64,000 bases of DNA from the NCBI RefSeq assembly GCF_002356295.1, contig NZ_AP018042.1:2822361-2886360 (forward strand), given 5' to 3'. The stretch comes from Labilibaculum antarcticum. Lineage in GTDB: Bacteria > Bacteroidota > Bacteroidia > Bacteroidales > Marinifilaceae. The translations under genes and the position numbers were made by a program. Shown piece by piece: positions 651 to 58,829 of this stretch (within the stretch, counting starts at the first letter, position 1; the number at the start of each line of letters is the position of its first letter). The notes below the pieces were generated by a model, which was not told where the DNA came from, made no database searches, and saw nothing but the letters and a program-made list of their open reading frames with translations.

Positions 651-3519
<2,869 letters not shown>

Positions 3520-3626
3520 GAGTGCGGGGTTCATCATTGAATCTTTTCAATGTTATTTTTGCTTTAATTTTTCGATATGTCTATGATATTATCTTGAGGG
3601 CTATGGTCCAATATAGATTAATGATT

Positions 3627-3736
<110 letters not shown>

Positions 3737-3740
3737 TTTT

Positions 3741-39691: not shown

Positions 39692-39761
39692 GGGGTAAAA
39701 TAATGTAAGCACATGGTAAATTTCAAGAATATCATCCCAGTACATTTCTCTTTCTTTGTTA
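39692..39761 (+). promoter_or_regulatory. Operator and promoter of the symporter/anhydrosugar operon (copy 1)
   Basis: Starting at 39692, GGGGTAAAATAATGTAA is followed by GGTAAAT; the two GGTAAA half-sites start exactly 21 bp apart, with a weaker TGTAA between them. TTCTTTGTTA (39752-39761) lies 60 bp downstream of the site start and probably marks the promoter. The same arrangement occurs before the operons at 52189 and 57447. The start codon of the symporter gene is 20 bp further on. Confidence 0.75.
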
Positions 39762-39780
39762 TAAATAAAAAGTATATATT

Positions 39781-40791
39781 ATGGAATTCGTATTTATACC
39801 CTTCGTTTTGGTATTATTCGCCAGTCTCTTTCAGGGATCATTTGGCCTTGGCATGAAATTCATGGCTCCTTTAAAATGGGAAGCGTGGTGGCTAGTTCAT
39901 GCTACAGTAGCAATGTTAATTATCCCAATTGCCTGGGCTTTATTAGTAGTGCCCGACTTGTTTGGGGTTATTGCAGACGCTCCTTCTGAAGCTATTTGGA
40001 TCGGCATGTTGTTTGGATTTTTGTGGGGAATTGGAGGAATAATGTTTGGGAAGAGTATTCCATATATTGGAATCTCACTAACGTACGGGATTGTAATGGG
40101 TGTTTGCTCGGCTGTTGGTAGTTTAATACCATTCTTTCAATTAGATGGAGCTGTTGATTTGCCTGCATTTCCATATGTTATGGCAGGTGTTGCATTAATG
40201 TTAGTTGGTGTTGCTATTACCGCATTTGCGGGAATAAAGCGCGATAATGTAGCTCAAAAAGAAAATGGAGGTGCCGTAAACCTAAAGGTGGGATTAATTA
40301 TTGCTCTCGTTAGTGGTGTTTTATCAGCTTTGCTGAATGTCGGTTTTGTTAATGCTCAGCCGGTTGGTAAGGTTGCTGAGGCAGCAGGCGCAATTGCAAG
40401 AAATAGTAGTTTGGCTATTTGGGTTGTTGTTCTTCTTGGTGCGTATGTGATGAATGCAGGATATGCGCTATTTCTACTTTTCAAAAATAAAACATGGGAT
40501 TCTTTCTCTGTTCCAAATTCCGGAAAAGCTTATGCTTGGGCAATTGGAGCTGGCTTGTTGTGGTTCGGAGCATTGGGTGTTTACGGACAAGGAGCGACAT
40601 TGATGGGCGAAATGGGACCTATAATTGGATGGCCAATCTTGCTGGGAGTTTCACTTGTTGTGAGTAATGTTTGGGCTTATCTAAATAAAGAGTGGGATGG
40701 GGCGAAAAAGCCTTTTGCAATATTACTTGGAGGTTTGTTTGTCCTTATCGTTGCTACCGTAGTTTTAGGGTATTCCAATGGTGTTGTGTAA
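39781..40791 (+). CDS. RhaT-like sugar/proton symporter
   Basis: The 336-residue inner-membrane protein has about ten helices in the drug/metabolite-transporter fold. It resembles the L-rhamnose/proton symporter RhaT: QGSFGLGMKFM near the N-terminus, the EAWWLVHA segment, WGIGGIMFGKSIPYIGISL, and GVLSALLNVGF in the second half. It heads an operon for an anhydro-galactose-like pathway, not rhamnose genes. I therefore infer transport of the locus monosaccharide, possibly 3,6-anhydrogalactose or galactose. An operator-promoter copy lies directly upstream. The gene symbol is withheld because specificity is unknown. Confidence 0.85.
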   Translation: MEFVFIPFVLVLFASLFQGSFGLGMKFMAPLKWEAWWLVHATVAMLIIPIAWALLVVPDLFGVIADAPSEAIWIGMLFGFLWGIGGIMFGKSIPYIGISLTYGIVMGVCSAVGSLIPFFQLDGAVDLPAFPYVMAGVALMLVGVAITAFAGIKRDNVAQKENGGAVNLKVGLIIALVSGVLSALLNVGFVNAQPVGKVAEAAGAIARNSSLAIWVVVLLGAYVMNAGYALFLLFKNKTWDSFSVPNSGKAYAWAIGAGLLWFGALGVYGQGATLMGEMGPIIGWPILLGVSLVVSNVWAYLNKEWDGAKKPFAILLGGLFVLIVATVVLGYSNGVV

Positions 40792-40827
40792 AGGAAGTAA
40801 GTTGTTATTCTTGATAAAGATTTGGGT

Positions 40828-41961
40828 ATGAAAATAAAGTCAATAGAGAGTTTTGTACTTTCGGATAAATTAGATGAAAGTTTTTACTTTTCGCAGTGGG
40901 AGTATGCTGAAAGGCGTATTTGTATAGTGAAAGTTACAAGTGATACAGGTCATGTTGGTTGGGGTGAAGGTTATGGACCTGCCGGTGTTATCAAGGCTGG
41001 AATAGAACTCCTAACACCGTTTTTAATTGGGCAAAATCCTTTGGAGACAGAAACCATCTGGAGTACAATGTATCGCCGAACATTAGATTTTGCAAGAAGA
41101 GGTGTTCTGGTTGCTTCCATTAGTGCTATTGATGTGGCTTTGTGGGACTTAAAAGGTAAGATAATGGAACTGCCTGTTCACTTATTATTGGGTGGAAAAA
41201 AAAGGGATTTTATTACGCCTTATGCAACGGGTATGTATTATACGCATTGCGATAATTTAGGCGATAAGCTTGTTAATGAGGCCAAACAATATGTCGACAT
41301 GGGATTTAAAATCATGAAAATGAAAGTTGGTCTTAGCATAGAAGAGGATATTGAGTATGTTAGAAGAGTTCGTGAAGCTATTGGCCCAAATATTAAGCTC
41401 GCAATTGACTCTAATCATGCTTACAACTTAAGAGAAGCAATTCAGTTGGCAAATGCTGTGGAGAAATATGATATATCATGGTTTGAAGAACCAATATCTC
41501 CAGAAAATTATGCTCAATATGCTGAATTGAGAACAAAAACTACTATTCCAATTTCAGGTGGCGAGTGTGAATATCTTCGTTTTGGTTTTCAGACTTTATT
41601 GAAATCAAATTGTGTAGACATTGTGCAACCGGATATTTGTGCATCAGGAGGATTGACCGAGGCTAAAAGAATTGCTGTGCTCGCATCTGTTTATGGTGTA
41701 GAACTGATTCCACACACTTGGGGAACTGGTATAGCCATATCAGCGGCTTTACATTTTGTAAGTAATTTGGATGTGTTGCCAGGACGGCTTAGAACGCCAA
41801 ATTGTTTGTTGGAATATGACAGAACCGAGAATGCTTTAAGAGAAGAGCTTACTAGTACTGACATGGTAATGAAAGACGGTAAGATTGTAATTAGTGACAA
41901 GCCTGGATTAGGTTTTGAATTGAATGAAGATGCGGTGCATAAATATACTTTAAAAAATTAG
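40828..41961 (+). CDS. Enolase-superfamily sugar-acid dehydratase or cycloisomerase
   Basis: The protein (377 residues from ATG 40828; a TTG two codons earlier is rejected) belongs to the mandelate racemase/muconate lactonising group. Catalytic residues fall almost exactly on mandelate racemase numbering: KMK with Lys164 and Lys166, metal ligands Asp194 (IDSNH), Glu220 (WFEEP) and Glu246 (GGECE), and His296 in PHTWGTG. Family members next to a KDG-type kinase and aldolase include D-galactonate dehydratase and 3,6-anhydrogalactonate cycloisomerase. An aldehyde dehydrogenase starts 2 bp downstream and sulfatases and beta-galactosidase are near, so I prefer the cycloisomerase, giving 2-keto-3-deoxygalactonate. 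Which AHG enantiomer is used cannot be read here. Confidence 0.85.
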   Translation: MKIKSIESFVLSDKLDESFYFSQWEYAERRICIVKVTSDTGHVGWGEGYGPAGVIKAGIELLTPFLIGQNPLETETIWSTMYRRTLDFARRGVLVASISAIDVALWDLKGKIMELPVHLLLGGKKRDFITPYATGMYYTHCDNLGDKLVNEAKQYVDMGFKIMKMKVGLSIEEDIEYVRRVREAIGPNIKLAIDSNHAYNLREAIQLANAVEKYDISWFEEPISPENYAQYAELRTKTTIPISGGECEYLRFGFQTLLKSNCVDIVQPDICASGGLTEAKRIAVLASVYGVELIPHTWGTGIAISAALHFVSNLDVLPGRLRTPNCLLEYDRTENALREELTSTDMVMKDGKIVISDKPGLGFELNEDAVHKYTLKN

Positions 41962-41963
41962 AT

Positions 41964-43400
41964 ATGAACTTTGGATATAAGAAACTATACATAGGTGGTG
42001 AGCTTCGTGACTCAATTTCCGGAGCTAAAAAGGATGTAATTTGTCCTGCAACAGAAGAAGTGGTTGGAACTCTTGCCTGGGCTGGGAAAGAAGATGCTGA
42101 ATTGGCATTGGATGAGGCTCAGAAAGGGTTTAAATACTGGTCGAAGCTGTCTCTTAAGGAGAGAACGGTATGGATGATGAAATTGCGTGAGGAAGTATTG
42201 AAGAATGATGATCTTTTGCGCAAAGCCGTTGTAATGGAAATGGGAAAATCCTACGACGCAGCTTGGGAAGATATTGAGTCTATAGTGAATGCTCTTGAAT
42301 TTTATCCAGGTGCAATGCGTAATATGCATGATGAAATTATTCCTGATCTTGAGAATACACATCGTCATAAGATAGTTAATCGACCTGCAGGTGTAGCAGT
42401 AGCTTATCTTGCTTGGAATTTTCCTCTTTTAAATGTTGGATTCAAAATTGGTCCAGCCTTGGCTGCGGGATGTTCTATAATTATTAAGCCTTCTGGCTTA
42501 ACTTCATTATCATCTTATGTGTTAGGAGAGATTCTTTACAATATGAATTTCCCTGCTGGTGTAATTAATTTTATCAGCGGTCCTGTTAGTGAAGTTGCCT
42601 ACACAATGACTACAAGTAAAATTCCAAAAGTGTTAACTATGATTGGTTCTTCTGAATCTGGTCGACAAGTTATGGCTGATTCTGCTACATCTGTAAAGCA
42701 TGTTAGTATGGAATTGGGAGGGAATGCTCCTTTTATTGTTTGTGAAGATGCAGACTTAGAGACTGCAACTAATATCGGGATTGCATTGAAATATGGTAAT
42801 TGTGGACAGATTTGTGTAGCCGTTAACCGATTCTTAATTCATGAAAAGGTATATGATGAATTTCTTGAAATGTTTATCGCTAAAGCAAAAAAGGTAAAAG
42901 TTGGTTTTGGCTTTGATGAAAAACCAGATATGGGACCTTTGGTTACTCTGAAAGACAGAGAGCGAATTCTCAAAATGGTTGAAGATGATGTGGCGAGTGG
43001 AGCTACTCTTGTGTTGGGTGGTGGAATTCCGAAAGATAAAAAAGTAGGAAACTTTATCGAGCCGACTATCATAACTGGACTCACAACAGAAATGCGTTGT
43101 TTTAAAGAAGAGATTTTTGGGCCAGTTGCTGCAATCATGAAATTCTCAACAAATGAAGAAGCAATCGAATTGGGTAACGATACTGTGTACGGTTTGGTTT
43201 CTTATGTGTTCTCTAATAACGAAAAGGAAATCAGACGTTTTTCTGAAGAACTTGATTTTGGTGAAGTGCAGGTAAATGGTGTGAAATATGCAATTTATTT
43301 ACCTCATGGAGGAATTAAAGAAAGTGGTATCGGACATGACTGTTCATACCTCGCTTTGAATGACTATTTAGTGAAGAAAAGAATAACAATTGCATTGTAA
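41964..43400 (+). CDS. NAD(P)-dependent aldehyde dehydrogenase, probably anhydrogalactose dehydrogenase
   Basis: The protein (478 residues) is a complete aldehyde dehydrogenase. It has the general-base Glu250 in ELGGNAPFIV and the catalytic Cys284 in GNCGQICVAVNR. The substrate and cofactor strands NFPLLNVGFKIGPALAAG and EEIFGPVAAIMKF are typical. It starts 2 bp after the enolase-superfamily gene, and the aldolase and kinase genes follow. In known 3,6-anhydrogalactose pathways an aldehyde dehydrogenase oxidises the sugar to the anhydrogalactonate used by the cycloisomerase. That role is inferred from the gene order. A more general succinate-semialdehyde-like dehydrogenase is the main alternative. 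Confidence 0.88.
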   Translation: MNFGYKKLYIGGELRDSISGAKKDVICPATEEVVGTLAWAGKEDAELALDEAQKGFKYWSKLSLKERTVWMMKLREEVLKNDDLLRKAVVMEMGKSYDAAWEDIESIVNALEFYPGAMRNMHDEIIPDLENTHRHKIVNRPAGVAVAYLAWNFPLLNVGFKIGPALAAGCSIIIKPSGLTSLSSYVLGEILYNMNFPAGVINFISGPVSEVAYTMTTSKIPKVLTMIGSSESGRQVMADSATSVKHVSMELGGNAPFIVCEDADLETATNIGIALKYGNCGQICVAVNRFLIHEKVYDEFLEMFIAKAKKVKVGFGFDEKPDMGPLVTLKDRERILKMVEDDVASGATLVLGGGIPKDKKVGNFIEPTIITGLTTEMRCFKEEIFGPVAAIMKFSTNEEAIELGNDTVYGLVSYVFSNNEKEIRRFSEELDFGEVQVNGVKYAIYLPHGGIKESGIGHDCSYLALNDYLVKKRITIAL

Positions 43401-43430
43401 GTTTCTTCGAATAAAATTTAAAAATAAAAT

Positions 43431-44102
43431 ATGCAACCTATTGCACAACGGGCTATGTCGCCTGATATAATTAGAAAGATAGACGATTGCGGTATTATTG
43501 CCGTTCTGGTTATAGATGAGTTGAAACATGCTGTTCCTGTAGCTCAAGCTCTTCTTAAAGGAGGAATTGATGCAATCGAATTGACGCTTCGTACTCCAGT
43601 TGCTATGGAAGCTGCTCGCCTCATAAAAAAGGAGGTTCCTGAAATTAATTTAGGATTTGGTACCGTGTTAACTGTAGATCAAGTAAAGGCTGTAGCTGAT
43701 TTGGGTGCTGATTTTGCAGTGGCCCCAGGTTGTAATCCGAAAGTTATTGCAGAGGCTTATAAGCAAGGCTTATCATTTGCTCCTGGAATTATGACCCCAT
43801 CGGATATTGAGATAGCAGTGGAACAGGGCTGTAGAGTGCTTAAGTATTTTCCTGCTGAAACATCAGGAGGAATGGAGCATTTGACCAATATGGTTGCACC
43901 TTACCAATACTTAGGTTTAACATTTATTCCTTTAGGAGGATGCAATATTCATAATGCTCCTTCTTATTTGGAGTCTTCGTTAATTACTGCAATTGGAGGT
44001 TCTTGGGTAGCTAAACGCCCTCTAATTCAAGCTGAGGATTGGGATACAATTACAGCCAATGCAAGAGAAATTAGAGCGTTGATTACCAAGATTAGAAAAT
44101 AG
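43431..44102 (+). CDS. 2-keto-3-deoxy-6-phosphogluconate/galactonate aldolase (KDPG family)
   Basis: This class I aldolase splits a 2-keto-3-deoxy-6-phospho sugar acid into pyruvate and glyceraldehyde 3-phosphate. The 223-residue protein has the family catalytic Glu50 in AIELTLRT, the Schiff-base Lys138 in LKYFPAE, and the phosphate-binding PLGGCN. VAPGCNPKVIAEA is also typical. It lies between the dehydrogenase and the kinase genes in the operon, so its substrate is most likely the phosphorylated product of the cycloisomerase branch. Confidence 0.93.
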   Translation: MQPIAQRAMSPDIIRKIDDCGIIAVLVIDELKHAVPVAQALLKGGIDAIELTLRTPVAMEAARLIKKEVPEINLGFGTVLTVDQVKAVADLGADFAVAPGCNPKVIAEAYKQGLSFAPGIMTPSDIEIAVEQGCRVLKYFPAETSGGMEHLTNMVAPYQYLGLTFIPLGGCNIHNAPSYLESSLITAIGGSWVAKRPLIQAEDWDTITANAREIRALITKIRK

Positions 44103-44169
44103 TAAGAATATTTCAGGCTTTGTTCTATTACTAATAGAACCGTAAAGTTGTGAGTCAAATATAATAAAG

Positions 44170-45261
44170 ATGAAAACAATTATAACATTCGGTGAGATAA
44201 TGGGGCGAATTTGCCCGGAAAATTTCCAACGTTTTCAACAAAGTATGCCAGGGAAACTTGACATGACTTTTGCCGGTGCAGAAGCTAATGTTGCTGCATC
44301 GATTGCTATGTTGGGAGGGAAAGTGAAATTTGTAACAGCACTGCCTGATAATGAAATGACTGATGCATGTTTATCTGTTTTGAAAGGGATTGATGTAGAT
44401 GTTTCGGGAATTAAGAGAGTGAATCAGGGGCGATTTGGTTTGTATTTTGTTGAGCGTGGAGCCAATCAAAGACCAAGTCGGGTAATGTATGACAGAGATT
44501 ATTCGGCGATATCATTAACACATGGTGAAGAATATGATTGGCGTAGATTATTTGCAGATGCTCAATGGCTGCATACAACCGGTATTACTCCATCCTTATC
44601 CGAAATCGCTGCAAATGCTACTGAAATTGCTGTTCGCACAGCGAAGGAAAAAGGTTTGTCTGTTTCTTGTGATTTAAACTTCAGAAAGAAACTTTGGCAA
44701 TGGCAATCTGGAACTTCAGCTTCTGATCTTGCTCAAAAAACCATGCGTGCAATACTTCCGTTTGTTGATGTTGTGATTGCAAATGAAGAAGATGCTCATG
44801 ATGTGTTGGGGATTTCTGCAGGAAATACAGATATCGAAGGAGGTAAGCTGGATGTAGAAAAATATACAGATGTAGCAAAAGAGATTGTAAGACAATTCCC
44901 AAATGTGAAGAAAGTTGCAATTACTTTACGGGAAAGTATTTCGGCTACACACAATAATTGGGGAGCTATGTTATACGATGCAGCTACTATGAAATCATAT
45001 TTTGCACCGCTTACTGATGGGAAGTATACTCCTTATGAAATTAAGTCTATTATTGATCGTGTAGGAGGTGGTGATTCTTTTGGTGCATCTTTGGTTTATG
45101 CTTTAAATACTCCGGATTTATCTGATCCTGAAAAAACAATACGATTTGCTGTTGCAGCATCATGTTTGTGTCACTCAATTAATGGAGATTTTAATTATTC
45201 ATCCCGATCAGAAGTCGAATCCTTAATGGGAGGTTCTGGCTCAGGAAGAGTTGTAAGATAA
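44170..45261 (+). CDS. PfkB-family 2-keto-3-deoxy sugar-acid kinase
   Basis: The protein (363 residues) is a ribokinase-like kinase. The N-terminal sugar-binding segment includes FAGAEANVAASIAMLG. DLNFRKKLW resembles KDG kinases. The anion-hole motif VGGGDSFGASLVYA carries the catalytic Asp302. KDG kinases are usually about 310-340 residues; extra length comes from loops near 175-235. It supplies the phosphorylated substrate of the aldolase encoded just upstream. A 178-bp gap with a hairpin (45309-45340) separates it from the sulfatase gene. Confidence 0.92.
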   Translation: MKTIITFGEIMGRICPENFQRFQQSMPGKLDMTFAGAEANVAASIAMLGGKVKFVTALPDNEMTDACLSVLKGIDVDVSGIKRVNQGRFGLYFVERGANQRPSRVMYDRDYSAISLTHGEEYDWRRLFADAQWLHTTGITPSLSEIAANATEIAVRTAKEKGLSVSCDLNFRKKLWQWQSGTSASDLAQKTMRAILPFVDVVIANEEDAHDVLGISAGNTDIEGGKLDVEKYTDVAKEIVRQFPNVKKVAITLRESISATHNNWGAMLYDAATMKSYFAPLTDGKYTPYEIKSIIDRVGGGDSFGASLVYALNTPDLSDPEKTIRFAVAASCLCHSINGDFNYSSRSEVESLMGGSGSGRVVR

Positions 45262-45308
45262 TAACAACCAATTTAAACCGGAAGGTTTAAAAAGTTCATT
45301 AATAGCCA

Positions 45309-45340
45309 TTTGGGAAACCTTCCATTTCCCAAATGACTAT
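45309..45340 (+). promoter_or_regulatory. Hairpin between the kinase and sulfatase genes
   Basis: CATTTGGGAAA and TTTCCCAAATG form an 11-bp stem around CCTTCCA. No T-run follows, so it is a weak terminator at best. It may set different expression of the catabolic genes and the sulfatase/galactosidase genes, or protect an mRNA end. Confidence 0.45.
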
Positions 45341-45439
45341 ATACTCCATAAATTAGGTGTCTTATTTTAGCCATTTATGGATGTTTTCAATAGAGAATAC
45401 TAACTATTTGTCTCTTTGTAAATTCAATCGTTTGTAAAG

Positions 45440-46930
45440 ATGATTTTTCCTTTAAAGTATATGAAAAATATGATTTCGTTATTGAACATCAGTAAAATGG
45501 CCTTTTTAGGTCTTTTGTTCGTTTCAGTAAGTTGCGCTGGAACAGCAGAGAAGAAAGCAAAAGATTCACGTCCTAATATCCTTGTTATACTGTGTGATGA
45601 TCTGGGTTATTCTGATGTTGGATTTAATGGAGCTAAAGATATCCCAACTCCTGCTTTAGATGGTTTGGCGGAAAGTGGAACCATTTTTTCTGCTGGTTAC
45701 GTAACTCACCCTTTTTGTGGCCCGAGCCGTGCAAGTATCATGACTGGGCGTTATCCACACACAATGGGAGTACAATTTAACCTGCCTCCTAACAGCGAAA
45801 CGATCGGAAAGGGTGTTCCTGTTGAAGAAACTTTTATTAGTAAAACATTACAGGAATCAGGATATTATACCGGAGCAATTGGGAAGTGGCATTTAGGTTC
45901 TGTGCCAAAATATCATCCTAATAAACGAGGATTTGATGAGTTTTTTGGCTTTTTAGGTGGAGGACATGAATATTTTCCTGATGAATATCGTGAGAAATAC
46001 GAAAAACAGAAAAAAGCTGGGAAAAAAGTGATATTTGAATACCTGCTTCCTTTGGAACACAATGGAAAATCAGTTAGAGAAACAGAATATTTAACAGATG
46101 CCTTTTCGCGGGAAGCTGTTAGGTTTGTAGATGATGCATCGAAAAAAGAGAAGCCATTTTTCCTTTACCTTGCCTATAATGCTCCTCATGTACCTCTTCA
46201 GGCTAAAAAAGAAGATTTAGAGAAGTTTTCACAGATTAAAGATGAACATAGAAGAACCTATGCTGCTATGGTTTATGCTGTTGATCGTGGTGTTGAAGAA
46301 ATAATAGAAAGTTTGAAAGCTAATGGTCAATTTGATAATACTCTAATTGTTTTCTTAAGTGATAACGGAGGTAAATTAAGTAAAGGAGCAACGAATTATC
46401 CATTACGAGAAGGCAAAGGCAGTGCTTGTGAAGGCGGTTATCGTGTACCCATGTTTTTTCATTGGCCAAATAAAGTTCCTGCAGGGGAACATTTTAATCA
46501 TCCGGTTTCAGCGCTTGATTTTTACCCAACTTTCACACAATTAGGAGGTGCTAAAATGCCTGAAGGGAAAATTCTGGATGGTAAAAATATCTGGAGCGAT
46601 TTTATTTCAGGAAAAGATGCTCATAAAGGGGATATGATTTACTGCTTGCGACATCGAACTGGTTTTACTGATGTTGGAGCTCGTCGTGATCAATGGAAAG
46701 CTTTACGACTTAATAATGAGCCTTGGAAATTATATGATGTTGATAAGGACATGGCAGAAAAATTTGATAAAAGTGCTGAACATCCAGAAATACTTAAGGA
46801 ATTAATTTCGGAAGCGGAAAAGTGGAGTCAAACTCATATTCAACCTCGTTGGTGGCATGATGAGCAGACAGGTATAGATTGGAAAGAGAATAAAATGCCT
46901 AGATTTAATGAAACATTTGCTGTTGAGTAA
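45440..46930 (+). CDS. Type I (formylglycine) sulfatase lipoprotein
   Basis: The protein (496 residues) removes sulfate from a carbohydrate. It has a hydrophobic N-terminus with a lipobox VSCAG (Cys32), so it should be membrane-anchored outside the cytoplasm. The sulfatase fold starts PNILVILCDDLGYSD with the metal-binding Asp pair. The sulfatase signature is PFCGPSRASIMTGRYP, where Cys93 is the residue converted to formylglycine. IGKWHLG and SDNGG complete the active site. Family S1 is certain; the subfamily and the sulfate position are not readable by eye. The first two internal Met are other possible starts. It precedes the GH2 gene by 37 bp. Confidence 0.93.
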   Translation: MIFPLKYMKNMISLLNISKMAFLGLLFVSVSCAGTAEKKAKDSRPNILVILCDDLGYSDVGFNGAKDIPTPALDGLAESGTIFSAGYVTHPFCGPSRASIMTGRYPHTMGVQFNLPPNSETIGKGVPVEETFISKTLQESGYYTGAIGKWHLGSVPKYHPNKRGFDEFFGFLGGGHEYFPDEYREKYEKQKKAGKKVIFEYLLPLEHNGKSVRETEYLTDAFSREAVRFVDDASKKEKPFFLYLAYNAPHVPLQAKKEDLEKFSQIKDEHRRTYAAMVYAVDRGVEEIIESLKANGQFDNTLIVFLSDNGGKLSKGATNYPLREGKGSACEGGYRVPMFFHWPNKVPAGEHFNHPVSALDFYPTFTQLGGAKMPEGKILDGKNIWSDFISGKDAHKGDMIYCLRHRTGFTDVGARRDQWKALRLNNEPWKLYDVDKDMAEKFDKSAEHPEILKELISEAEKWSQTHIQPRWWHDEQTGIDWKENKMPRFNETFAVE

Positions 46931-46967
46931 ATTTATTTTTGAATAAGGGATTCTAAAAAAGATATAA

Positions 46968-50207
<3,240 letters not shown>

Positions 50208-50233
50208 ATCTAAAAATAATACAAAATAGCACT

Positions 50234-50554
50234 ATGAAATATAAATTTAGTCACATAGGAATACCAACTACAGAAGAGAAAAATTGGGATGGCTTTTACG
50301 AAGCAGGTAAAATCCATTTTACAGATTTTAGTAAAGATGAGTTTGGTGTTGAATGGGTAAAATGTGATGCTGATAGTCCGATGCCTGCAATGTTCCAAAA
50401 TGTAGCACATGTGGCTTATTTGGTTGATAATATTGAAGATGCATTGAAAGGTAAAGAGGTTTTAGTTGACACTTTTTCTCCGGGAGAAGGGGTACGAGTT
50501 GCATTTATTGTGCATAATGGATCCCCTATCGAATTCATGGAAATAAAAGAGTAA
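50234..50554 (+). CDS. Small VOC-like protein of the anhydrosugar operon
   Basis: The 106-residue protein has no signal peptide. Its start KFSHIGIPTTEEKNWDGFY and the later VAHVAYLVDNIEDAL and SPIEFMEI give the beta-alpha-beta-beta-beta pattern of the vicinal-oxygen-chelate superfamily, with possible metal ligands His7, His53 and Glu103. It is the last gene of the operon, 26 bp after the beta-galactosidase gene. A cytoplasmic isomerase, epimerase or lyase step in anhydrosugar breakdown is possible, but nothing in the sequence fixes a reaction. Confidence 0.7.
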   Translation: MKYKFSHIGIPTTEEKNWDGFYEAGKIHFTDFSKDEFGVEWVKCDADSPMPAMFQNVAHVAYLVDNIEDALKGKEVLVDTFSPGEGVRVAFIVHNGSPIEFMEIKE

Positions 50555-50580
50555 TACCGTTGATATTTCATTTCAGTTTT

Positions 50581-50630
50581 GAGCAGTCCATAGGTTTAAA
50601 TAAGCCATTGGACTGTTCTATTTTATGTAT
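50581..50630 (+). terminator. Possible terminator of the first operon
   Basis: GAGCAGTCCA and TGGACTGTTC can pair around about 18 bases, with an inner AGG/CC pairing, followed by TATTTTAT. The T-run is interrupted, so the call is tentative. Confidence 0.5.
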
Positions 50631-50762
50631 TATTGATGATTTACAAGCTGAAATTATAATCCGGTTATGGGAATTTTAGCTATATTGTGTTAATAAATAC
50701 TAAGCCAATAGTATTTTGATAGTCAGAACTAATATGTGTCTATTTTATAGATTATTGATTTC

Positions 50763-51620
50763 ATGAAGTTGATATTAAAAAATACTGACAGTTCCTTAAA
50801 TGATAGAGTAATCATTACTAAAAAGGAAATTCCATGTCTGGATTCATCTTGGCATTATCATGATCAGTATGAGTTATTGTATATATCAAAAAGTAATGGT
50901 ATTCGTTTTGTTGGCGATAGTGTTTCCCAATTCCACCCTGGTGAATTAGTATTAGTTAGCCCCTATTTGCCACACTTATGGCGAAATGATGCCTCTTACT
51001 ATAAGGAGGACGACACTAATAAGGTGAAGACTATTATTATTAAATTTTCGAAAGATTTTATTGGTGAGGGAACTTTTAATCTGGCCGAATTTACTGATAT
51101 AAATAATTTATTTGAACAGTCGAAATTTGGAGTGAGTTTTGGAAATAAGATTAGTAAAGCTCTGCACAACGAATTGATTCAGATTATAGACTTGTCACCT
51201 GCTCAACAATTAATTAAACTTTTAGACATATTGTGTCGTTTATCGAATACCGATGATAAAAAGATTTTGTCATCTTCAGATATGCGTCAATATACTACAG
51301 ATAGTTCGGATCGTTTGGATACCGTTATAAAATTCGTTTCTGATAATTACGCCAGTGATATCAGTTTGAATGATGTTGCAGACATTGCTTGTATGACTAC
51401 AAATTCGTTTTGTAGGTTTTTTAAAAAGATGACCAATAAATCTTTCACCCAATTTCTAAATGAAATTCGTATTCGTAATGCTTCACGTATTTTAGTACAG
51501 GAAGATATATCGGTATCCGAAGTTTGTTATATGGTAGGTTATAATTCAATTACCAATTTTAACCGCCAGTTTAAAGAGATAATGGGCAATACTCCTAATA
51601 GTTACCGTAACGCTATTTAA
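50763..51620 (+). CDS. AraC-family transcriptional regulator
   Basis: The protein (285 residues) has an N-terminal cupin ligand-binding domain (about 20-110, with SSWHYHDQYELLYISK and HPGELVLVSPYLPHLW). A C-terminal AraC DNA-binding domain (about 185-283) has two helix-turn-helix parts: LNDVADIACMTTNSFCRFF and VSEVCYMVGYNSITNFNRQF. It lies between the two halves of the locus and is the only regulator in it. The repeated 21-bp-spaced operator upstream of three neighbouring operons has the geometry of AraC-type sites, so I infer that this protein activates the locus in response to a sugar. Confidence 0.93.
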   Translation: MKLILKNTDSSLNDRVIITKKEIPCLDSSWHYHDQYELLYISKSNGIRFVGDSVSQFHPGELVLVSPYLPHLWRNDASYYKEDDTNKVKTIIIKFSKDFIGEGTFNLAEFTDINNLFEQSKFGVSFGNKISKALHNELIQIIDLSPAQQLIKLLDILCRLSNTDDKKILSSSDMRQYTTDSSDRLDTVIKFVSDNYASDISLNDVADIACMTTNSFCRFFKKMTNKSFTQFLNEIRIRNASRILVQEDISVSEVCYMVGYNSITNFNRQFKEIMGNTPNSYRNAI

Positions 51621-51643
51621 CATTCACTTCTGGTTCAGCTCTT

Positions 51644-51672
51644 TTTTACCCCTCTCTTACCCTTATTTACCC
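51644..51672 (-). promoter_or_regulatory. Inverted operator copy after the araC-type gene
   Basis: On the minus strand GGTAAAT (51671-51665) and GGTAAAA (51650-51644) start 21 bp apart, with a third half-site GGTAAGA (51661-51655) between them. This is the operator pattern of the locus in opposite orientation, 14 bp from the direct copy that starts at 51686. No minus-strand gene follows it. Confidence 0.6.
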
Positions 51673-51685
51673 TCAAATAAAAAGC

Positions 51686-51764
51686 GGGGTAAAATAATGC
51701 AAAAACAGGGTAATTTTAACCAGTCAGACCTCCTTTTTTTTCAGTTTATTTACAATAAATAAGT
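51686..51764 (+). promoter_or_regulatory. Operator and promoter of susC-susD (copy 2)
   Basis: GGGGTAAAATAATGCAA (from 51686) is followed by GGTAATT, with half-sites 21 bp apart. At the same 60-bp offset as in the other two copies lies TTTATTTACAATAAATAAG (51745-51763), which aligns with TTTCTTTGTTATAAATAA of copy 1. The susC start codon is about 430 bp downstream, so the transcript would have a long leader. Confidence 0.7.
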
Positions 51765-52188
51765 AAGGTGTAGTTACTTAGGTATTCTGGGTGTTTGTAT
51801 CCACCTTTTGGAACTAGTAGGATATTATCCTTATAGAGTACGTGATAAAATAGGATATAAATATTATTCTGTTTAGATCTATTTGAAATTACATGTTGAA
51901 ATAGATTATTGATATATGATTTGGTAACTCCTACTGATGTCGATATGGAGGTACATAGTGTTAATTAATTCAGTTAAATCAATAAATATTTTTTAAGGAA
52001 TCTGATCAGAAATTCTATTGGCATATGCATCCAATGCAAACGATATAAAATTTAATCGCATTTCGAATTTATGATAATATATAACTCTAGTAATAAATTA
52101 TGCGTCAAGAAAGGCTTTCAGCTGTCTTGGTGATATCTAATGTCAAAAATCAACTAATCGTTTTTATTCACCTCAAGATGAAAAACTT
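51765..52188 (+). other. Long untranslated leader of susC
   Basis: About 420 bp separate the predicted promoter from the susC start. No coding frame is convincing; ATG 52178 opens only a four-codon frame (ATG AAA AAC TTA TGA). A weak hairpin GTAACTCC/GGAGGTAC (about 51925-51955) and AT-rich tracts are present. The length leaves room for post-transcriptional control. Confidence 0.4.
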
Positions 52189-55100
52189 ATGAAAAAACCG
52201 AAAAATTTACAGCAAATTTTTAGGATTATGGCGTTTACAGTATTTAGCTTCTTGCTTAGTGCAATGCAAGTTGTGGCTGTAAATTCAAATTCTCTAAATA
52301 CGGCTATGTCAACCGAATTGGATGATGAAGCTATAGAAAATGTTACAGATCAAGGAAGTGTTAGTGGTATTATTAAAGACAATACTGGATTTACTTTGCC
52401 TGGTGTTAGTGTTTTTGTGAAAGGTACCACCAATGGTACAATTACAAATATTGATGGCTTTTTTGAATTGTTAGGCGTTACCGAAGGGGATGTTTTGGTA
52501 ATCTCTTTTGTGGGTATGAAAACGCAAGAAATTGTGTTTGCTAACCAAACTACTTTGGAAATTGTATTGGAAGAAGATACAATTGGTTTGGACGAAGTAG
52601 TTGCAATTGGTTATACCACAAGAAAAAAAGGTGAACTTACTGGTTCTATTAGTACTATCGAAGCTGAGGAACTATCTAAAACTTCCAATAAGGATTTAGC
52701 TAAATCTTTAGCAGGTAAGGTTACTGGTTTAATTGTTTCCGATAGAGGAGGATATCCTGGAGATAGTGATATGACTCTTTTAATTAGAGGTAAATCAACT
52801 TTAGGGAATAATTCACCATTAATTTTAATTGATGGTATTACTGCCAGTAGTTTTTCAAATTTGGCTCCTCAGGATATTGAGTCATTAAATGTTTTGAAGG
52901 ATGGAGCGGCTGCTATTTACGGTGCACGTGCGGCTAATGGGGTAATTTTAATTACAACTAAAAGAGGAAAAGCAGGTAAAGCAAAAATTAGTTTATCTAG
53001 TTCGATTAACTTTTCTTCCTTTTCTGCGAAGCCAGACTTAATGTCTTCAGAGCAATATGCTATTTATAATAATGAAATAGCAACAAGAGAAGGAACTGCA
53101 CTTCCTTATACTCAGGAACAGATTGATAAGTATGCTGCTGGTAATGATCCTAACTATCCAAGTACAGATTGGGGAGATTTAACTTTTGCAGATTCTGCAC
53201 CGGAAACAAGAACCTCTCTTTCAATTTCTGGGGGTAGTGATAAGGTTAATTACTTTGTTAGTGGTGATTATATGGATCAAAAAGGAATGTTTGAATCGGG
53301 ATCTTTGAAATTTAAGCAATATCAAGTTCGTTCAAACATCGACATGAAACTACATGAGACTTTTACTTTGGGTCTTGATTTATCTGGACAATTTGGTAAT
53401 AGAAAAGAACCTGGTGTAGATGATGGTTTTATTTATAAGCACATTTACACAAATGAACCAACTGAAGTTGGGATTTATCCTAATGGTCTTCCTGGATGGG
53501 GTGGTGAGAATGGTGCCAATCCTTATGTAATGTCAAGTGCTGAGTCTGGTTTTGTTAAGCAACAGGATAATGATTTACGCGGTAAATTATCTTTTGACTG
53601 GAAGTTGGATATGCTAACTCCTGGTCTGAAAATTAAAGGTTTTGCAGGCTACAGAAAACAGAGTAATGATATAAAATCATGGTATACTCCTTGGTCTGTT
53701 TATCAGTTTCAGGAAGGAACAAATGAGTATGTAGAGACAGCTGGATTCTCTCAAAGTGGCAATAAGATTATTTTGCGCGAGAGTTTTTGGAAATATGATG
53801 AGTTGATGTTGAATTCAACGATTCACTATTCTAAAACTTTAGGCGAAGATCATAACATTAGTGCCTTCGCAGGTTATGAATATTTTTCATCACAGCAACG
53901 TTCGTTTTGGGCTGAGAAAAAAGATTTTCCAAGCAAGGATCATCCTGAATTATTTGCAGGTAGTGATGCAGGACAACAAGCTTCGGGTAATTCACAAGAA
54001 TGGGGAAGAGTAAATTATTTTGGATCTTTTTCTTACGATTATCAGAAAAAATACTTTGTTGACTTTACGCTTCGTCACGACGGTTCAAGTAATTTTGGAG
54101 AGAAAAAATTTGGTACTTTCCCCGGACTTGCTGTAGCATGGGCACTAGATAAGGAGTCATTCATGGAGGATATTTCATGGTTAAATGCCTTAAAATTGAG
54201 AAGTTCTTGGGCGCAAATGGGTAACGACCGTATCGCAGGATTCCAATACTTGACAAAATACGATTATGGAGGAACTAACTGGGCTCAACCAAATTCTTAT
54301 ATTTTCGGAACACCCGGAGTACAGTACAACTCTTACAACAGTAGTAATGTTCCTAATCCCGATATTACATGGGAAAAGGCTGATATGAAAAATATTGGCT
54401 TAAGTTTCAGTTTATTTGATTATAAATTATCGGGAGATGTTAACTATTTCTATCAGAAAAGAGAAGATATCTTAATTACACGAAATGCTTCAATTCCTGA
54501 TGTTGCCGGTCTAACTTTGCCACAGGAGAATTTAGGTAAAGTAGATAACTTCGGATGGGAATTTGAATTGAACTGGAAAGATAAAATAGGAGAGGTAGAT
54601 TATAATTTTGGTTTCAACTTTACTCAAGCTAAAAACGAAGTAGTTTATATGGATGAGGCTGCTGATGTCGAAGATTATATGAAGAGAGAAGGACACTCAA
54701 TGGATTCATATGTAATTTATCCTACTTCAGGGATCTTCAGGGATCAAGCTCAAGTTGATGCAACGGCAGTGAAAAAAGCAGGTTCAGGTGAAGGTGATCC
54801 AATCTATTTAGATACAAACGAAGACGGGAAAATTGATTCAAAGGATAGAGTTCGTTCTTATGACTCTAATGTTCCGGAAATTCAATTTGGTATTCATGGA
54901 GGAGTAAGCTACAAAAACTTTGATGCAAGCTTTTTATTTCAAGGACAAGCTAAAGCTAAAATGTTAGTATTCTTTGACCAATCAGGTTCCAAACCAGACT
55001 ATGTGTTTAATCAAAGATGGACTCCGGATAATCGTGATTCAAGATATCCAAGAGCTTTTAAGCAGGACGATTCATTTAGTGGAAATCAAAGTGGTAATGC

Positions 55101-55365
55101 TGCTAATTTTGAAGGAGCTGACTTGTGGTTGCACGATGCTTCTTTCGTAAGATTAAAAGAAGTTGAATTAGGATATACTTTCTCAAAAGGCCAAATTAAG
55201 TTTGGAACTCTAAAGGTATTTGCTCGAGGATTTAATTTATTAACAATGTTCTCTGATGTTTATGATTTAGGTTTAGATCCTGAGGCTAGTGGTTACAATA
55301 ATTTTAGAGGAAGTACTTATCCATCTCTAAAGTCTTATACTTTCGGGTTTAATCTTAATTTTTAA
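52189..55365 (+). CDS. SusC/RagA-family TonB-linked outer-membrane transporter
   Basis: The 1058-residue protein imports glycan oligosaccharides through the outer membrane with its SusD partner. It has a signal peptide (about 1-32), a carboxypeptidase-regulatory-like domain (about 55-130, with GVSVFVKGTTNGTITNIDG), and the SusC plug. The plug reads EVVAIGYTTRKKGELTGSIS at its start and later IRGKSTLGNNSPLILIDG. A large beta-barrel follows, ending SYTFGFNLNF. The susD gene follows 63 bp downstream. The import substrate is inferred from the surrounding sulfatases, GH2 and GH127 enzymes. No STN domain is seen, so regulation should be through the AraC protein and not through an ECF sigma factor. 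Confidence 0.96.
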   Translation: MKKPKNLQQIFRIMAFTVFSFLLSAMQVVAVNSNSLNTAMSTELDDEAIENVTDQGSVSGIIKDNTGFTLPGVSVFVKGTTNGTITNIDGFFELLGVTEGDVLVISFVGMKTQEIVFANQTTLEIVLEEDTIGLDEVVAIGYTTRKKGELTGSISTIEAEELSKTSNKDLAKSLAGKVTGLIVSDRGGYPGDSDMTLLIRGKSTLGNNSPLILIDGITASSFSNLAPQDIESLNVLKDGAAAIYGARAANGVILITTKRGKAGKAKISLSSSINFSSFSAKPDLMSSEQYAIYNNEIATREGTALPYTQEQIDKYAAGNDPNYPSTDWGDLTFADSAPETRTSLSISGGSDKVNYFVSGDYMDQKGMFESGSLKFKQYQVRSNIDMKLHETFTLGLDLSGQFGNRKEPGVDDGFIYKHIYTNEPTEVGIYPNGLPGWGGENGANPYVMSSAESGFVKQQDNDLRGKLSFDWKLDMLTPGLKIKGFAGYRKQSNDIKSWYTPWSVYQFQEGTNEYVETAGFSQSGNKIILRESFWKYDELMLNSTIHYSKTLGEDHNISAFAGYEYFSSQQRSFWAEKKDFPSKDHPELFAGSDAGQQASGNSQEWGRVNYFGSFSYDYQKKYFVDFTLRHDGSSNFGEKKFGTFPGLAVAWALDKESFMEDISWLNALKLRSSWAQMGNDRIAGFQYLTKYDYGGTNWAQPNSYIFGTPGVQYNSYNSSNVPNPDITWEKADMKNIGLSFSLFDYKLSGDVNYFYQKREDILITRNASIPDVAGLTLPQENLGKVDNFGWEFELNWKDKIGEVDYNFGFNFTQAKNEVVYMDEAADVEDYMKREGHSMDSYVIYPTSGIFRDQAQVDATAVKKAGSGEGDPIYLDTNEDGKIDSKDRVRSYDSNVPEIQFGIHGGVSYKNFDASFLFQGQAKAKMLVFFDQSGSKPDYVFNQRWTPDNRDSRYPRAFKQDDSFSGNQSGNAANFEGADLWLHDASFVRLKEVELGYTFSKGQIKFGTLKVFARGFNLLTMFSDVYDLGLDPEASGYNNFRGSTYPSLKSYTFGFNLNF

Positions 55366-55428
55366 TTAAAAGTTAAAAAATACTCCGTTTAATTAGAGGA
55401 TGATATATTCAATATAAAAAATAGAGAG

Positions 55429-57132
55429 ATGAAAAATTTTAAATATATACTTATTGTATTTGCACTTTTTGCAACATTTGGTTGTGAAGATGTGTTGGAT
55501 ACCGAAGCAAAAGATGCTTTCGCTGAGGATTTAATTTACAGCGATCCGAGTCAATTGGAAAAATTGGTTTTTACATCATACAATAGCACTGAAGGGTGGG
55601 GCTTGAATCGAGATCAATGGTGGTCACGTCGATTTAATATTGAGGGAGCTTCTTTTGAGGCAAAATTTAACTTCAAAGATCTTGATTTATTCAGAGCAAG
55701 AGCTGGTTGGATAGCTAATAATGTTGGCGTTTTTGCTCAGAAATGGTCGCAATATTGGGATTACGTGCGTTTAACCAATGAATTTTTGGATCGTGTTGAT
55801 GATAGTGAAGCGATGAAAGTTGATCCGGATAAGGTGAATATACTTAAGGCTGAGATGAAATTTTTAAGAGCCAATTTATATTCTAAATTGATCCGCTTTT
55901 ATGGGGGTGTTCCAATTATGGAGGGAGCACTTGGTCTTGAGGATAATTTTAATTTGGAAAGAAATTCTTACGAGGAATGTGTTGACTTCATTGTAAAAGA
56001 GTTAGATGAGGCGGCTGCAATTCTTCCATTAACACGTCCTGATAGTGAATTTGGTAGAGTAACTAAATTAGCGGCTTTAGCTGTTAAATCGCGTACATTA
56101 TTGTATGCGGCAAGTAAGCTTCACGATCCTGCTACTGTTCCAAACGGACCCTTATATGATTATACTAAAGCATCAAAATGGCAAGATGCTTCTGATGCTG
56201 CAAAAGCAGTTATTGATTTAGTGGGAGCGAGAGATCTTATTTCTGTAGCCGATGCAAAAGCTTATCAGGAATTATTTTTGTCTCCTAATGAGGATATTTT
56301 GTTTGCAAGACCTTACGGTTCTGTTTATTATGATTTCGGAACGGATGTGAACTCGCTACCTGATCAGACTATGTCTCCAAGTGGTTACGGGGGTTGGGCA
56401 TTATCTTCACCAACACATAATTTCACATTGCAATTTAATATGGCGGATGGAACCACAACGGATGAAGTAACTTTTGATCCCGCGAATCCAAATACAGGTA
56501 GAGAGATGAGATATTATGCAGATTTAAACTTCAATGGTGCAATGTTTCGAGGTAGAGATGTTCAATATTATCTTGCTGAAACACCTAGTGTAGAAACACC
56601 AAATGGGTTGGATTCTCCTGAAGGATTAGGAAATACTGGACATTCTTCCAAAACGGGTTATAATATCAGAAAATTTCAGGATGAAAGTCTGGGAGGGTTA
56701 ACCGATATTTCTTCTCAACGTCCTTATATTTTGTATCGATTATCTGAAGTTTATTTGAATTACGCTGAAGCTCAATATCACTTGGGTGCAGAGAGTGTTG
56801 CCAGAGATTTTGTTTCTAAAATTTCATCAAGAGCACTTCAGCCAGCTATTACTGCTACAGGAGAAGATCTTTTGGAAGCAATCAAAAGAGAAAGACGTGT
56901 TGAACTTTGTTTTGAAGGTCATAATTTCTTTGATGAGAGAAGATGGATGAATGAAGCTCATTTGGGTTTTGATATAAAAGGATTGACTTGGACAATGGCA
57001 ACTGATGGATCTTTATCTTTCACGGAAAACACTGTTGTTACAAGACCTTGGTTCGAAAGAGAGTACTATTTACCAATTCCTTCTACAGAAATTGAAAAGG
57101 CTCCTGCATTATTGCAAAATGATGGATATTAA
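55429..57132 (+). CDS. SusD/RagB-family surface glycan-binding lipoprotein
   Basis: The 567-residue protein is the lid that covers the SusC channel and captures oligosaccharides. It has a lipoprotein signal with Cys19 (TFGCED). The TPR-rich SusD fold shows VNILKAEMKFLRANLYSKL, then IRFYGGVPIM, and the C-terminal signature AIKRERRVELCFEGHNFFDERRW. It ends with YYLPIPSTEIEKAPALLQND, as in most family members. It forms a unit with susC; a strong terminator follows. Confidence 0.96.
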   Translation: MKNFKYILIVFALFATFGCEDVLDTEAKDAFAEDLIYSDPSQLEKLVFTSYNSTEGWGLNRDQWWSRRFNIEGASFEAKFNFKDLDLFRARAGWIANNVGVFAQKWSQYWDYVRLTNEFLDRVDDSEAMKVDPDKVNILKAEMKFLRANLYSKLIRFYGGVPIMEGALGLEDNFNLERNSYEECVDFIVKELDEAAAILPLTRPDSEFGRVTKLAALAVKSRTLLYAASKLHDPATVPNGPLYDYTKASKWQDASDAAKAVIDLVGARDLISVADAKAYQELFLSPNEDILFARPYGSVYYDFGTDVNSLPDQTMSPSGYGGWALSSPTHNFTLQFNMADGTTTDEVTFDPANPNTGREMRYYADLNFNGAMFRGRDVQYYLAETPSVETPNGLDSPEGLGNTGHSSKTGYNIRKFQDESLGGLTDISSQRPYILYRLSEVYLNYAEAQYHLGAESVARDFVSKISSRALQPAITATGEDLLEAIKRERRVELCFEGHNFFDERRWMNEAHLGFDIKGLTWTMATDGSLSFTENTVVTRPWFEREYYLPIPSTEIEKAPALLQNDGY

Positions 57133-57182
57133 TACAATAAAATTTAAGTTAGTATTAGATTAGTTATAGTGAGATTAGTGTG

Positions 57183-57214
57183 AATACCGGAAGGAAACTT
57201 CCGGTATTTTTTTT
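57183..57214 (+). terminator. Intrinsic terminator of susC-susD
   Basis: AATACCGGAAG and CTTCCGGTATT form an 11-bp stem with a GAAA tetraloop, followed by a T-run, 50 bp after the susD stop. Confidence 0.93.
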
Positions 57215-57290
57215 GGTTCATCTATTTTCGAATCTAGAAATTAGATGATGAAATCGGTAAAAGAGAGTTCAAGTCATAAAATATTACCAA

Positions 57291-57360
57291 GGGGTAAAAT
57301 AATGTAATCACGAGGTAAATTTCACCAAGCTAGTTCATTCTAATTTGATTTTCTTTGTTA
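57291..57360 (+). promoter_or_regulatory. Operator and promoter of the sulfatase-GH127 operon (copy 3)
   Basis: GGGGTAAAATAATGTAA (from 57291) is followed by GGTAAAT, half-sites 21 bp apart. TTCTTTGTTA lies at 57351-57360, again 60 bp from the site start, exactly as in copy 1. The sulfatase start codon is 86 bp further downstream. Confidence 0.75.
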
Positions 57361-57446
57361 GTAAGAATAAATTGTAAAAGGGAAAGAATTTTTGTTTGAA
57401 CAGAAAAGACGAATTCTCATATGTTGAAACTTATACTATAATTGAG

Positions 57447-58829
57447 ATGAAATATAAAGTACTACTTATTACAGTTCTGCTTTTTCAGCAACTTGTATTC
57501 GCACAAAAGAAACCCAATATAGTGCTTCTTTTTTCTGATGATGCGGGTTATGCTGATTTTGGATTTCAGGGAAGTAAGGTAATGCACACGCCAAATCTGG
57601 ATAAATTAGCCAGTGAAGGTGTGAAATTTACACAAGGATATGTGTCTGCATCAGTTTGTGGTCCTTCGCGAGCAGGACTTATGACTGGGCGCTATCAAGA
57701 AAGTTTTGGTTTTGAAGAGAACAATGTACCTACATTCATGAGTAGTAATTCTGCTTTAGATGGAGAGAATATGGGTTTGCCACTCGATCAGGTAACTATT
57801 GGAGATCATTTAAAGGCGTTGGGTTATACTACAGCAATTTTTGGAAAATGGCATTTGGGAGGTGCTGATTGTTACCACCCAAGCAAACGTGGATTTGATG
57901 AGTTTTATGGATTTCGTGGTGGAGCACGTAGCTACTATGAATATCCAAATGTTCTGAATGTGCCACGTGAAAATCGCTTGGAACGTAATTTTGAAGAGTA
58001 TGCCGAGCCAGAAAGATATTTAACCGATAGACTTGGTGAAGAAGCAGTTGATTTTATTGAAAGGAATCAAGATAAACCATTTTTTGCTTTTGTGTCGTTT
58101 AATGCGGTACACACTCCTATGGAAGCTGAGGAAAAGGATATGGCAAAGTTTCCACAATTATCTGGAAAAAGACAGCAGGTTGCTGGTATGACTTTGGCAT
58201 TGGATCGTGCTTGCGGATTGATTCTTGATAAATTAAAAGAACTTGGCTTGGATGAAAACACAATTGTGGTTTTTACAAACGATAATGGGGGACCAACCGA
58301 TAAAAATGCTTCAATTAATCTTCCCTTAGCAGGAACAAAATCGAATCACCTAGAAGGTGGTGTGAGAGTTCCTTATATAATGCGATGGCCAGGAAAAATT
58401 AAAGAAAATACGGAATATGATTATCCTGTGAGTACGATGGATCTGTTGCCTACTTTTGTAGCTGCTGCAGGAGGCGATTCTAAAGCATTGGAAAATGTTG
58501 ATGGAGTTGATTTACTGCCTTTTATTCAGAATGAAAACACAAGTAGACCTCATAATGTTTTATTTTGGAAAAAAGATTGCCGAGCTTCTGTACGTTTGGG
58601 AGATTGGAAATTATTGAGATTTCCTGACCGTCCTGCAGAGTTATATAATATCATTAAAGATGAGTCGGAGCAAAACGATTTGGCCGCAAAATATCCTGAC
58701 AAAGTACGTGAAATGTATAAGATGATATTCGAGTGGGAATCTACTTTAGAGCGCCCTCGTTGGTTGTTGGATCGTAAATTCGAAAATGTAGATATTGACA
58801 GAATGGATAAATATAGAAAAGTTAAATAA
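57447..58829 (+). CDS. Type I (formylglycine) sulfatase, secreted
   Basis: The protein is 460 residues from ATG 57447, which gives a clean signal peptide ([20 protein letters not shown]); the TTG-started extension from 57396 is rejected. The fold starts [17 protein letters not shown] with the metal-binding Asp pair. The formylglycine Cys71 sits in [24 protein letters not shown] and TNDNGGP complete the active site. It differs clearly from the lipoprotein sulfatase at 45440, so a different sulfate position or oligosaccharide is likely. It heads the operon driven by the third operator copy, and the first GH127 gene starts 2 bp after its stop. Confidence 0.94.

Follow-up and report, generated by a model that had tools for sequence, protein, structure and literature searches.

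A conserved direct repeat with 21-bp half-site spacing as the predicted operator of a CgrA-type AraC-family activator in a carrageenan locus of Labilibaculum antarcticum

The 64,000-nucleotide stretch of the Labilibaculum antarcticum genome analyzed here (contig NZ_AP018042.1, positions 2,822,361 to 2,886,360; hereafter the window) contains a polysaccharide utilization locus (PUL) of the carrageenan / 3,6-anhydro-D-galactose (D-AnG) type, in which the same repeated element precedes three gene groups. These repeats are very likely the operator of a CgrA-type AraC-family activator, encoded within the locus at 50763–51620, which is predicted to bind them and thereby to control the use of carrageenan, a red-seaweed polysaccharide, and of D-AnG. 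The genome comparisons below show that the direct repeat, with half-sites exactly 21 bp apart and locked to a -7 element of the form TAnnTTTG, recurs in many Bacteroidota with this AraC protein, in front of carrageenan-type genes. On sequence evidence, the operator is real, specific and widely conserved, and very probably belongs to the neighboring AraC protein.

Operator and promoter in the window and in orthologous loci

Exact copies of the 14-mer GGGGTAAAATAATG occur at 39692, 51686 and 57291 and nowhere else in the 5.72-Mb genome. A preliminary description of this DNA had proposed a shared element at these three sites with half-sites 21 bp apart, and both proposals hold: the spacing from GGTAA to GGTAA is 21 bp in each copy (Table 1), the second GGTAA beginning 23 bp past the start of the GGGG. 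The weaker half-site that it placed between them is present at +10 as TGTAA in copies 1 and 3, while copy 2 reads TGCAA there, and the gap of four to six nucleotides that it allowed before GGTAA proved to be six nucleotides (YAA to GGTAA) in all three copies. With up to three mismatches to GGGGTAAAATAATG allowed, the window yields 12 matches (3 exact and 9 with three mismatches) against a chance mean of 10.8, so that only the exact window copies stand out. A genome search for the 14-mer gave two further one-mismatch matches (L004 and L005), which we discounted because a reversed-pattern control also gave two. The bipartite pattern GGTAAAATAATGYAANNAMNNGGTAAWTT, searched with up to three mismatches, found the same three sites alone in the whole genome (control 0), and the motif is thus not spread over many unrelated genes in this genome. 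Two other 21-bp pairs in the window, at 379 (16.3 bits, between two tRNA genes) and at 38469 (inside a listed open reading frame, ORF), were judged to be chance matches.

In all three copies a -7 element begins 57 bp after the first GGTAA. The preliminary description had correctly placed a promoter element at a fixed offset in copies 1 and 3, with a variant in copy 2, but had not recognized TTCTTTG as a Bacteroidetes -7 element. Promoters of this phylum have a -7 element TANNTTTG and an often weak or absent -33 element, and transcription starts 4–5 nt after the -7 element (PMC6847099). The elements TTTCTTTG (copies 1 and 3) and TTTATTTA (copy 2) can be assigned to the TAnnTTTG class through the conserved columns at +57/58 and +61 to +64; relative to TAnnTTTG, position 2 is T in the window, and the final base of copy 2 differs. 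Assuming the same distance of 4–5 nt, transcription is predicted to start near 39763, 51757 and 57362. No -33 TTTG was found near the expected place, either in the three window sites or in the 86-pair logo described below.

The predicted susC leader (51753–52188) is about 430 nt long, compared with roughly 20–85 nt for the other two operons, and about 40–50 bases around and before the susC start codon are strongly conserved in L043, L044 and G014. An RNA element was set aside as an explanation of the repeats, which lie upstream of the predicted starts; an Rfam scan of the window returned rRNA and tRNA only.

A search of GTDB genomes with the AraC protein identified 50 loci, 48 at 62–91% identity and two distant paralogues (L091 and L092, about 30%). 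We analyzed 47 of these (L044–L090), leaving out L043, from the window's own genus, and the paralogues; L085 and L088 are two parts of one AraC gene from a single metagenome-assembled genome. Same-strand GGTAA pairs numbered 86 at exactly 21 bp, spread over 37 of the 47 loci, versus 0–21 at each other spacing between 5 and 60 bp. The logo of the 86 pairs reads GGTAAAATA..GTAA.....(A/G)GGTAAWTT, and TAnnTTTG forms a further conserved block at +57 to +64; TTTG stands at exactly +61 in 52/86 pairs versus 1/113 control pairs with other spacings (16–40 bp). Peaks at 9, 15 and 33 bp were rejected as further operator classes, being mostly coding repeats by eye (e.g. in SusC genes), except for those in L083 (9 bp), L058 (15 bp) and L071 (33 bp), which lie at or beside real operators.

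A leave-one-locus-out matrix (threshold at least 14 bits; the matrix applied to the window was built without the window, L043 and L044) located 133 sites in 44 of the 47 loci, versus 3 with the reversed matrix, although some loci are close relatives of one another and the procedure is thus not fully independent. All but one of these sites (132/133) fall between genes under simple ORF models, 124 lie no more than 400 nt upstream of a same-strand ORF, and 104 have TTT at +61 to +63, 82 of them as TTTG. The genes downstream vary, comprising SusC, sulfatases, dauB, dauD, GH127, the RhaT-type symporter, GH2 and the 106-aa protein as well as 31 ORFs without a window homologue, and a site falls within 250 nt past the AraC stop codon in 37/46 loci and before AraC in 1/46. 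The pattern is thus more than one inherited promoter. A loose form of the pattern is present in 31/31 genomes (30 with orthologue loci plus that of the window, L044 being left out), with 123 matches versus 39 for the reversed control. At least one other homologue of a window PUL gene (BLAST E ≤ 1e-10) accompanies the AraC gene in all 48 orthologue loci (L043–L090), some of these being weakly similar, e.g. in L085.

The regulator and the distribution of its predicted sites

The protein encoded at 50763 matches HTH_18 above the Pfam cut-off (E 4e-20) and Cupin_2 below it. Its AlphaFold model (mean pLDDT 84.7, with residues 1–13 and 26–28 poor) matches AraC and RhaR regulatory domains in Foldseek at E < 0.001, and the best full-length matches are the AraC-family proteins ToxT, CsvR and Rns (TM about 0.4). 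A C-terminal domain with two helix-turn-helix (HTH) motifs and an N-terminal cupin-like effector domain, as modeled, place it in the AraC/XylS family. Among 46 aligned AraC sequences, window included, identity to the window protein is 99% in the recognition helix of HTH1, 78% in that of HTH2 and 65% in the cupin region; the difference between HTH1 and HTH2 parallels that between the rigid GGTAA box and the looser inner box.

The operator core follows the regulator across genomes. Among 59 genomes, that of the window included, an AraC protein of at least 82% identity is found in G000, G003 and G014 alone, the other long matches listed being at most 36% identical. The loose pattern GGTAAWWT-N13-GGTAANWT is matched in 22/59 genomes. 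G000, G003 and G014 have three matches each, every one with the GGTAAWATAATG core; the 19 matching genomes among the remaining 56 have no match with that core. In a sample of 299 Flavobacteriaceae genomes, 12 have an AraC orthologue (best match 61–71%); a dauA match at E ≤ 1e-150 is present in all 12 and in 25/299 overall. The operator-plus-TTT pattern is matched in 10 of the 12 orthologue genomes versus 20 of the 287 others (Fisher p 1.3e-9), and in 3 of the 13 genomes with dauA but without the orthologue. The proposal of the preliminary description that a shared AraC operator defines a regulon is thus supported by uniqueness in the genome, the 47-locus comparison, the leave-one-out matrix, co-occurrence with the orthologue and the comparison with paralogues that follows.

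Nine loci (L122–L130) with paralogue-type sites were chosen as look-alikes from genomes without the orthologue, at least two more being similar (G189 and G117). All nine sites lie directly upstream of a paralogous AraC gene (32–36% identity), suggesting that this Flavobacteriaceae paralogue regulates itself; the GGTAA-21-GGTAA arrangement and TTT at +61 were both required by the search, and the inner sequence is AACATATTTT-like. The paralogue helices are SFCRYFKK in 9/9 and SHFNKSFK in 7/9 (SHFNKQFK or SHFNRSFK in two), compared with TNFNRQFK in the window.

Loci were also compared from four genomes with an AraC protein of about 35–40% identity (G213, G319, G098 and G371). The AraC proteins of L131–L134, about 38% identical to that of the window, have the helices AFCRYFKK and TNFNRQFK. 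By Pfam, the gene order in L132 is AraC, GntP-type permease, RhaT-type symporter, dauB, dauA, DGOK, aldolase and a weak GH129; L133 is similar, and L134 has no symporter at that place. The window operator with one changed base in its GGTAA boxes is present in all three of these Zobellia-type loci, before the symporter in L132 and L133 and before dauB in L134, its -7 element keeping the same offset (GGGGTAAAATAATGCAA in L133, for example), and L131 has an unchanged GGTAA pair upstream of a SusC-like gene. Scan matches at L133 5915, L134 7367 and L134 15463 were taken as weaker or chance.

A simple rule, by which the same HTH1 helix would imply GGTAA, is not established: of 27 distant-paralogue loci (L009–L035, covered to about 1.5 kb on each side), where most helices differ (e.g. 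KTAFCRFFKSKT), 25 have no pair with at most one mismatch plus TTT at +61, and L024 and L027 have one such pair with one mismatch each. We tentatively put forward, as an idea with somewhat less than even chances, a modular code in a branch of Bacteroidota AraC regulators, in which an HTH1 helix [SA]-F-C-R-[FY]-F-K-K would read GGTAA, the choice of inner box would fall to the HTH2 helix (ATAATGTAA for TNFNRQFK, AACATATTTT-like boxes for SHFNKSFK and its close variants) and the site would stand at one fixed distance from a -7 element without a -33 element. If true, the regulons of uncharacterized AraC proteins would be predictable from sequence.

Predicted mode of action and alternatives

In the proposed mechanism two regulator subunits would occupy adjacent positions on the same face of the helix, the first HTH of each reading GGTAA and the second the inner box, which begins about 10 bp beyond it. 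Given starts 4–5 nt after the -7 element, the half-sites would begin near -69 and -48, with the promoter-proximal one covering the -33 zone, where TTTG is not evident, and the regulator would recruit polymerase with the Bacteroidetes sigma factor; activation in class-II style is the natural inference from this arrangement. The inducer is likely, by analogy, to be D-AnG or a near catabolite, because Zobellia counterparts of the leading genes of the three operons respond to D-AnG and a cgrA mutant grows poorly on carrageenans.

Several observations weigh against binding of this operator by this regulator in the way proposed. The looser GGTAA/21-bp pattern is matched in 19/56 relatives without the orthologue and the motif-plus-TTT pattern in 20/287 Flavobacteriaceae without it, so that the architecture is not exclusive to this regulator. 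Conversely, the pattern is unmatched in the orthologue genomes G085 and G222, the match in G123 is on another contig, and in 3 of the 47 loci no site reaches 14 bits. The core residues of HTH1 do not vary in L091 and L092 either, paralogues of 30% identity, and hence the conservation of this helix marks a wider branch and is not specific proof; the L091 helix differs by one residue, yet 20 kb around it hold no qualifying site (best matrix score 12.2 bits). Elements at -33 are often lacking in this phylum (PMC6847099), which makes their absence here weak evidence for class-II activation. In Zobellia, carrageenan but not D-AnG elicits a response from dauC, dauD, cgsC, dagB and the genes for polymer degradation (PMC5698469), though window operon 1 includes counterparts of dauC and dauD; a further signal or regulator is at work in Zobellia.

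Ownership of the operator by another regulator, either a distal AraC paralogue or a hybrid two-component protein, with the adjoining AraC gene a passenger or acting elsewhere, gains some plausibility from the 33 AraC-type matches to this protein in the genome (E ≤ 0.001) and from the related GGTAA/21-bp sites before another AraC paralogue. Those paralogue-type sites, however, combine a different inner box with a different HTH2 helix, the operator core tracks this AraC orthologue across genomes, and the operator lies just past the AraC gene in 37/46 loci. Pfam scans of the 14 PUL proteins (39781–63046) revealed no other regulator domain, and no hybrid two-component regulator was among them. We regard this alternative as improbable. 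It is far less probable still that the repeats are not selected binding sites but promoter cassettes that were duplicated recently and have stayed similar through recombination: three neighboring promoters do share an exact 14-mer, with GGTAAATTTCA and the -7 element common to copies 1 and 3 as well, but most bases in the flanks and between operator and -7 element differ, and distant genera have the same boxes separated by different sequence.

A further element bears on how the regulator might act. An inverted three-box array on the minus strand, overlooked in the preliminary description, lies back-to-back with operator 2, 17 bp apart and pointing away, has no -7 element, and is also present in Labilibaculum filiforme (L043, 21.2 bits) and Ancylomarina (L044, 22.9 bits). 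It could provide extra regulator occupancy at susC or aid looping. Escherichia coli AraC forms a loop when sugar is absent, and the back-to-back placement in three species would fit an AraC protein that acts mainly by repression, or one that loops DNA as a dual regulator and uses the inverted array as partner site. Operators 1 and 3 lack such a partner, the fixed placement upstream of the -7 element fits activation, and deletion of cgrA in Zobellia lowers growth on carrageenan, indicating positive regulation, although the same study also calls the mode of regulation complex (PMC5698469). Repression or looping as the main mode therefore appears unlikely, if marginally less so than a different owner of the operator, and we retain activation by the CgrA-type protein.

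Genes of the locus and known systems

The locus is a carrageenan / D-AnG PUL whose gene set resembles that described for Zobellia galactanivorans (PMC5698469). The preliminary description had seen the regulon and had named neither the carrageenan pathway nor the known regulator CgrA. With its regulator encoded alongside D-AnG pathway, GH127 and sulfatase genes, the locus has the composition of a CgrA-type regulon. Operator 1 precedes the genes RhaT-like, dauB, dauA, dauD, dauC, sulfatase, GH2 and 106-aa, and gene spacing suggests that operon 1 runs from the first of these to the last. The PfkB-type kinase in place of the DGOK-family kinase of the Zobellia-type locus L132 is a non-orthologous replacement within the same pathway, as judged from family assignments. 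For the sulfatase at 57396 the listed TTG start is probably too early, since an in-frame ATG at 57447 opens a signal-peptide-like sequence. The 106-aa VOC/glyoxalase-like protein recurs in several carrageenan-type loci across genera and perhaps serves a step in anhydro-sugar handling. The end of an rRNA operon (16S end, two tRNAs, 23S, 5S) occupies positions 1–3737, about 36 kb from the PUL.

Table 1. Operators, promoter elements and genes of the carrageenan-type locus (window coordinates; scores of operators 1–3 are from the leave-one-out matrix)
Feature	Position	Strand	Remarks
Operator 1	39692..39724	+	GGTAA 39694, TGTAA 39704, GGTAA 39715; 34.2 bits
-7 element, operon 1 promoter	39751..39758	+	TTTCTTTG; +57 from first GGTAA
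RhaT-family sugar/H+ symporter	39781..40791	+	Pfam; counterpart of ZGAL_3157 by family (PMC5698469 Table 1)
Enolase-superfamily dehydratase / cycloisomerase, dauB-like	40822..41961	+	Pfam; role by analogy to PMC5698469
Aldehyde dehydrogenase, dauA-like (putative D-AnG dehydrogenase)	41964..43400	+	Pfam; role by analogy
KDPG-type aldolase, dauD-like	43431..44102	+	Pfam
PfkB-family sugar kinase (dauC role)	44170..45261	+	Pfam; not the DGOK family of L132
Sulfatase	45440..46930	+	Pfam
GH2 beta-galactosidase-like	46968..50207	+	Pfam
106-aa protein, weak VOC/glyoxalase-like	50234..50554	+	Below Pfam cut-off
AraC-family regulator, CgrA-type	50763..51620	+	Cupin-like N-terminus; recognition helices 213-224, 263-274 in model
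Inverted three-box array	51646..51671	-	GGTAA at 51671, 51661, 51650 (0, +10, +21); 23.6 bits
Operator 2	51686..51718	+	GGTAA 51688 and 51709; upstream of susCD; 36.2 bits
-7 variant, susCD promoter	51745..51752	+	TTTATTTA; same offset
SusC-like TonB-dependent transporter	52189..55365	+	Pfam
SusD-like lipoprotein	55429..57132	+	Pfam
Operator 3	57291..57323	+	GGTAA 57293, TGTAA 57303, GGTAA 57314; 36.7 bits; upstream of sulfatase - GH127 - GH127
-7 element, operon 3 promoter	57350..57357	+	TTTCTTTG
Sulfatase	57396..58829	+	Pfam
GH127	58832..60856	+	Pfam
GH127	61031..63046	+	Pfam

The carrageenan regulon of marine Bacteroidota has so far been known from RNA sequencing and one regulator mutant. 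No operator sequence is given in main-text parts of the Zobellia study (PMC5698469), and no carrageenan AraC operator was found in the literature searched, supplementary files aside. A conserved operator at a fixed offset would make the regulon readable directly from genomes and the D-AnG-responsive genes predictable, and would offer a ready test of AraC activators working with the unusual Bacteroidetes sigma factor.

At the E. coli araBAD promoter (I1-I2), AraC binds a direct repeat whose half-sites are spaced by about 21 bp, and the proximal half-site extends to the -35 region. The window regulator resembles this system further in that AraC and RhaR regulatory domains are among its fold matches; araBAD differs in sequence, has a sigma-70 promoter and involves CRP and the distant O2 loop site. 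Unlike those of Bacteroidetes housekeeping promoters, the window -7 elements keep a constant offset of 57 bp from an upstream operator. The rhamnose regulons of Bacteroides RhaR and other AraC-family regulators likewise have predicted direct repeats with 21-bp periodicity, but they serve rhamnose genes and their motifs are described as unique (PMC3870299). By Pfam, the window gene set is of the 3,6-anhydro-galactose type and not that of L-rhamnose catabolism, which only the RhaT-family transporter recalls.

The closest known system is that of Zobellia galactanivorans, with a DMT/RhaT-type symporter, dauB, dauA, dauD, GH127, sulfatases, susCD and an AraC-family regulator; there, unlike in the window, susCD lies far from the PUL and GH129 is present (PMC5698469). 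L132, with the Zobellia gene order, differs from the window in its DGOK-type kinase and in an AraC protein only about 38% identical over its full length. The mutant in cgrA (ZGAL_3159, AraC family) grows with a lag and less on carrageenans, and ZGAL_3155-3158, 3580-3581 and 3145-3150 respond to D-AnG (PMC5698469). By family, these D-AnG-responsive genes correspond to those that lead window operon 1, to susCD and to the operon of sulfatase and GH127 genes. A GH2 gene of Zobellia is unresponsive to D-AnG (PMC5698469), although a GH2 gene sits in window operon 1. The 21-bp direct-repeat geometry, from AraC regulons including Bacteroides RhaR (PMC3870299), and the control of carrageenan use by CgrA (PMC5698469) are already known; new, as far as the literature searched extends, are the operator sequence, its fixed offset from the promoter, the inverted array and the tentative match of helix to box.

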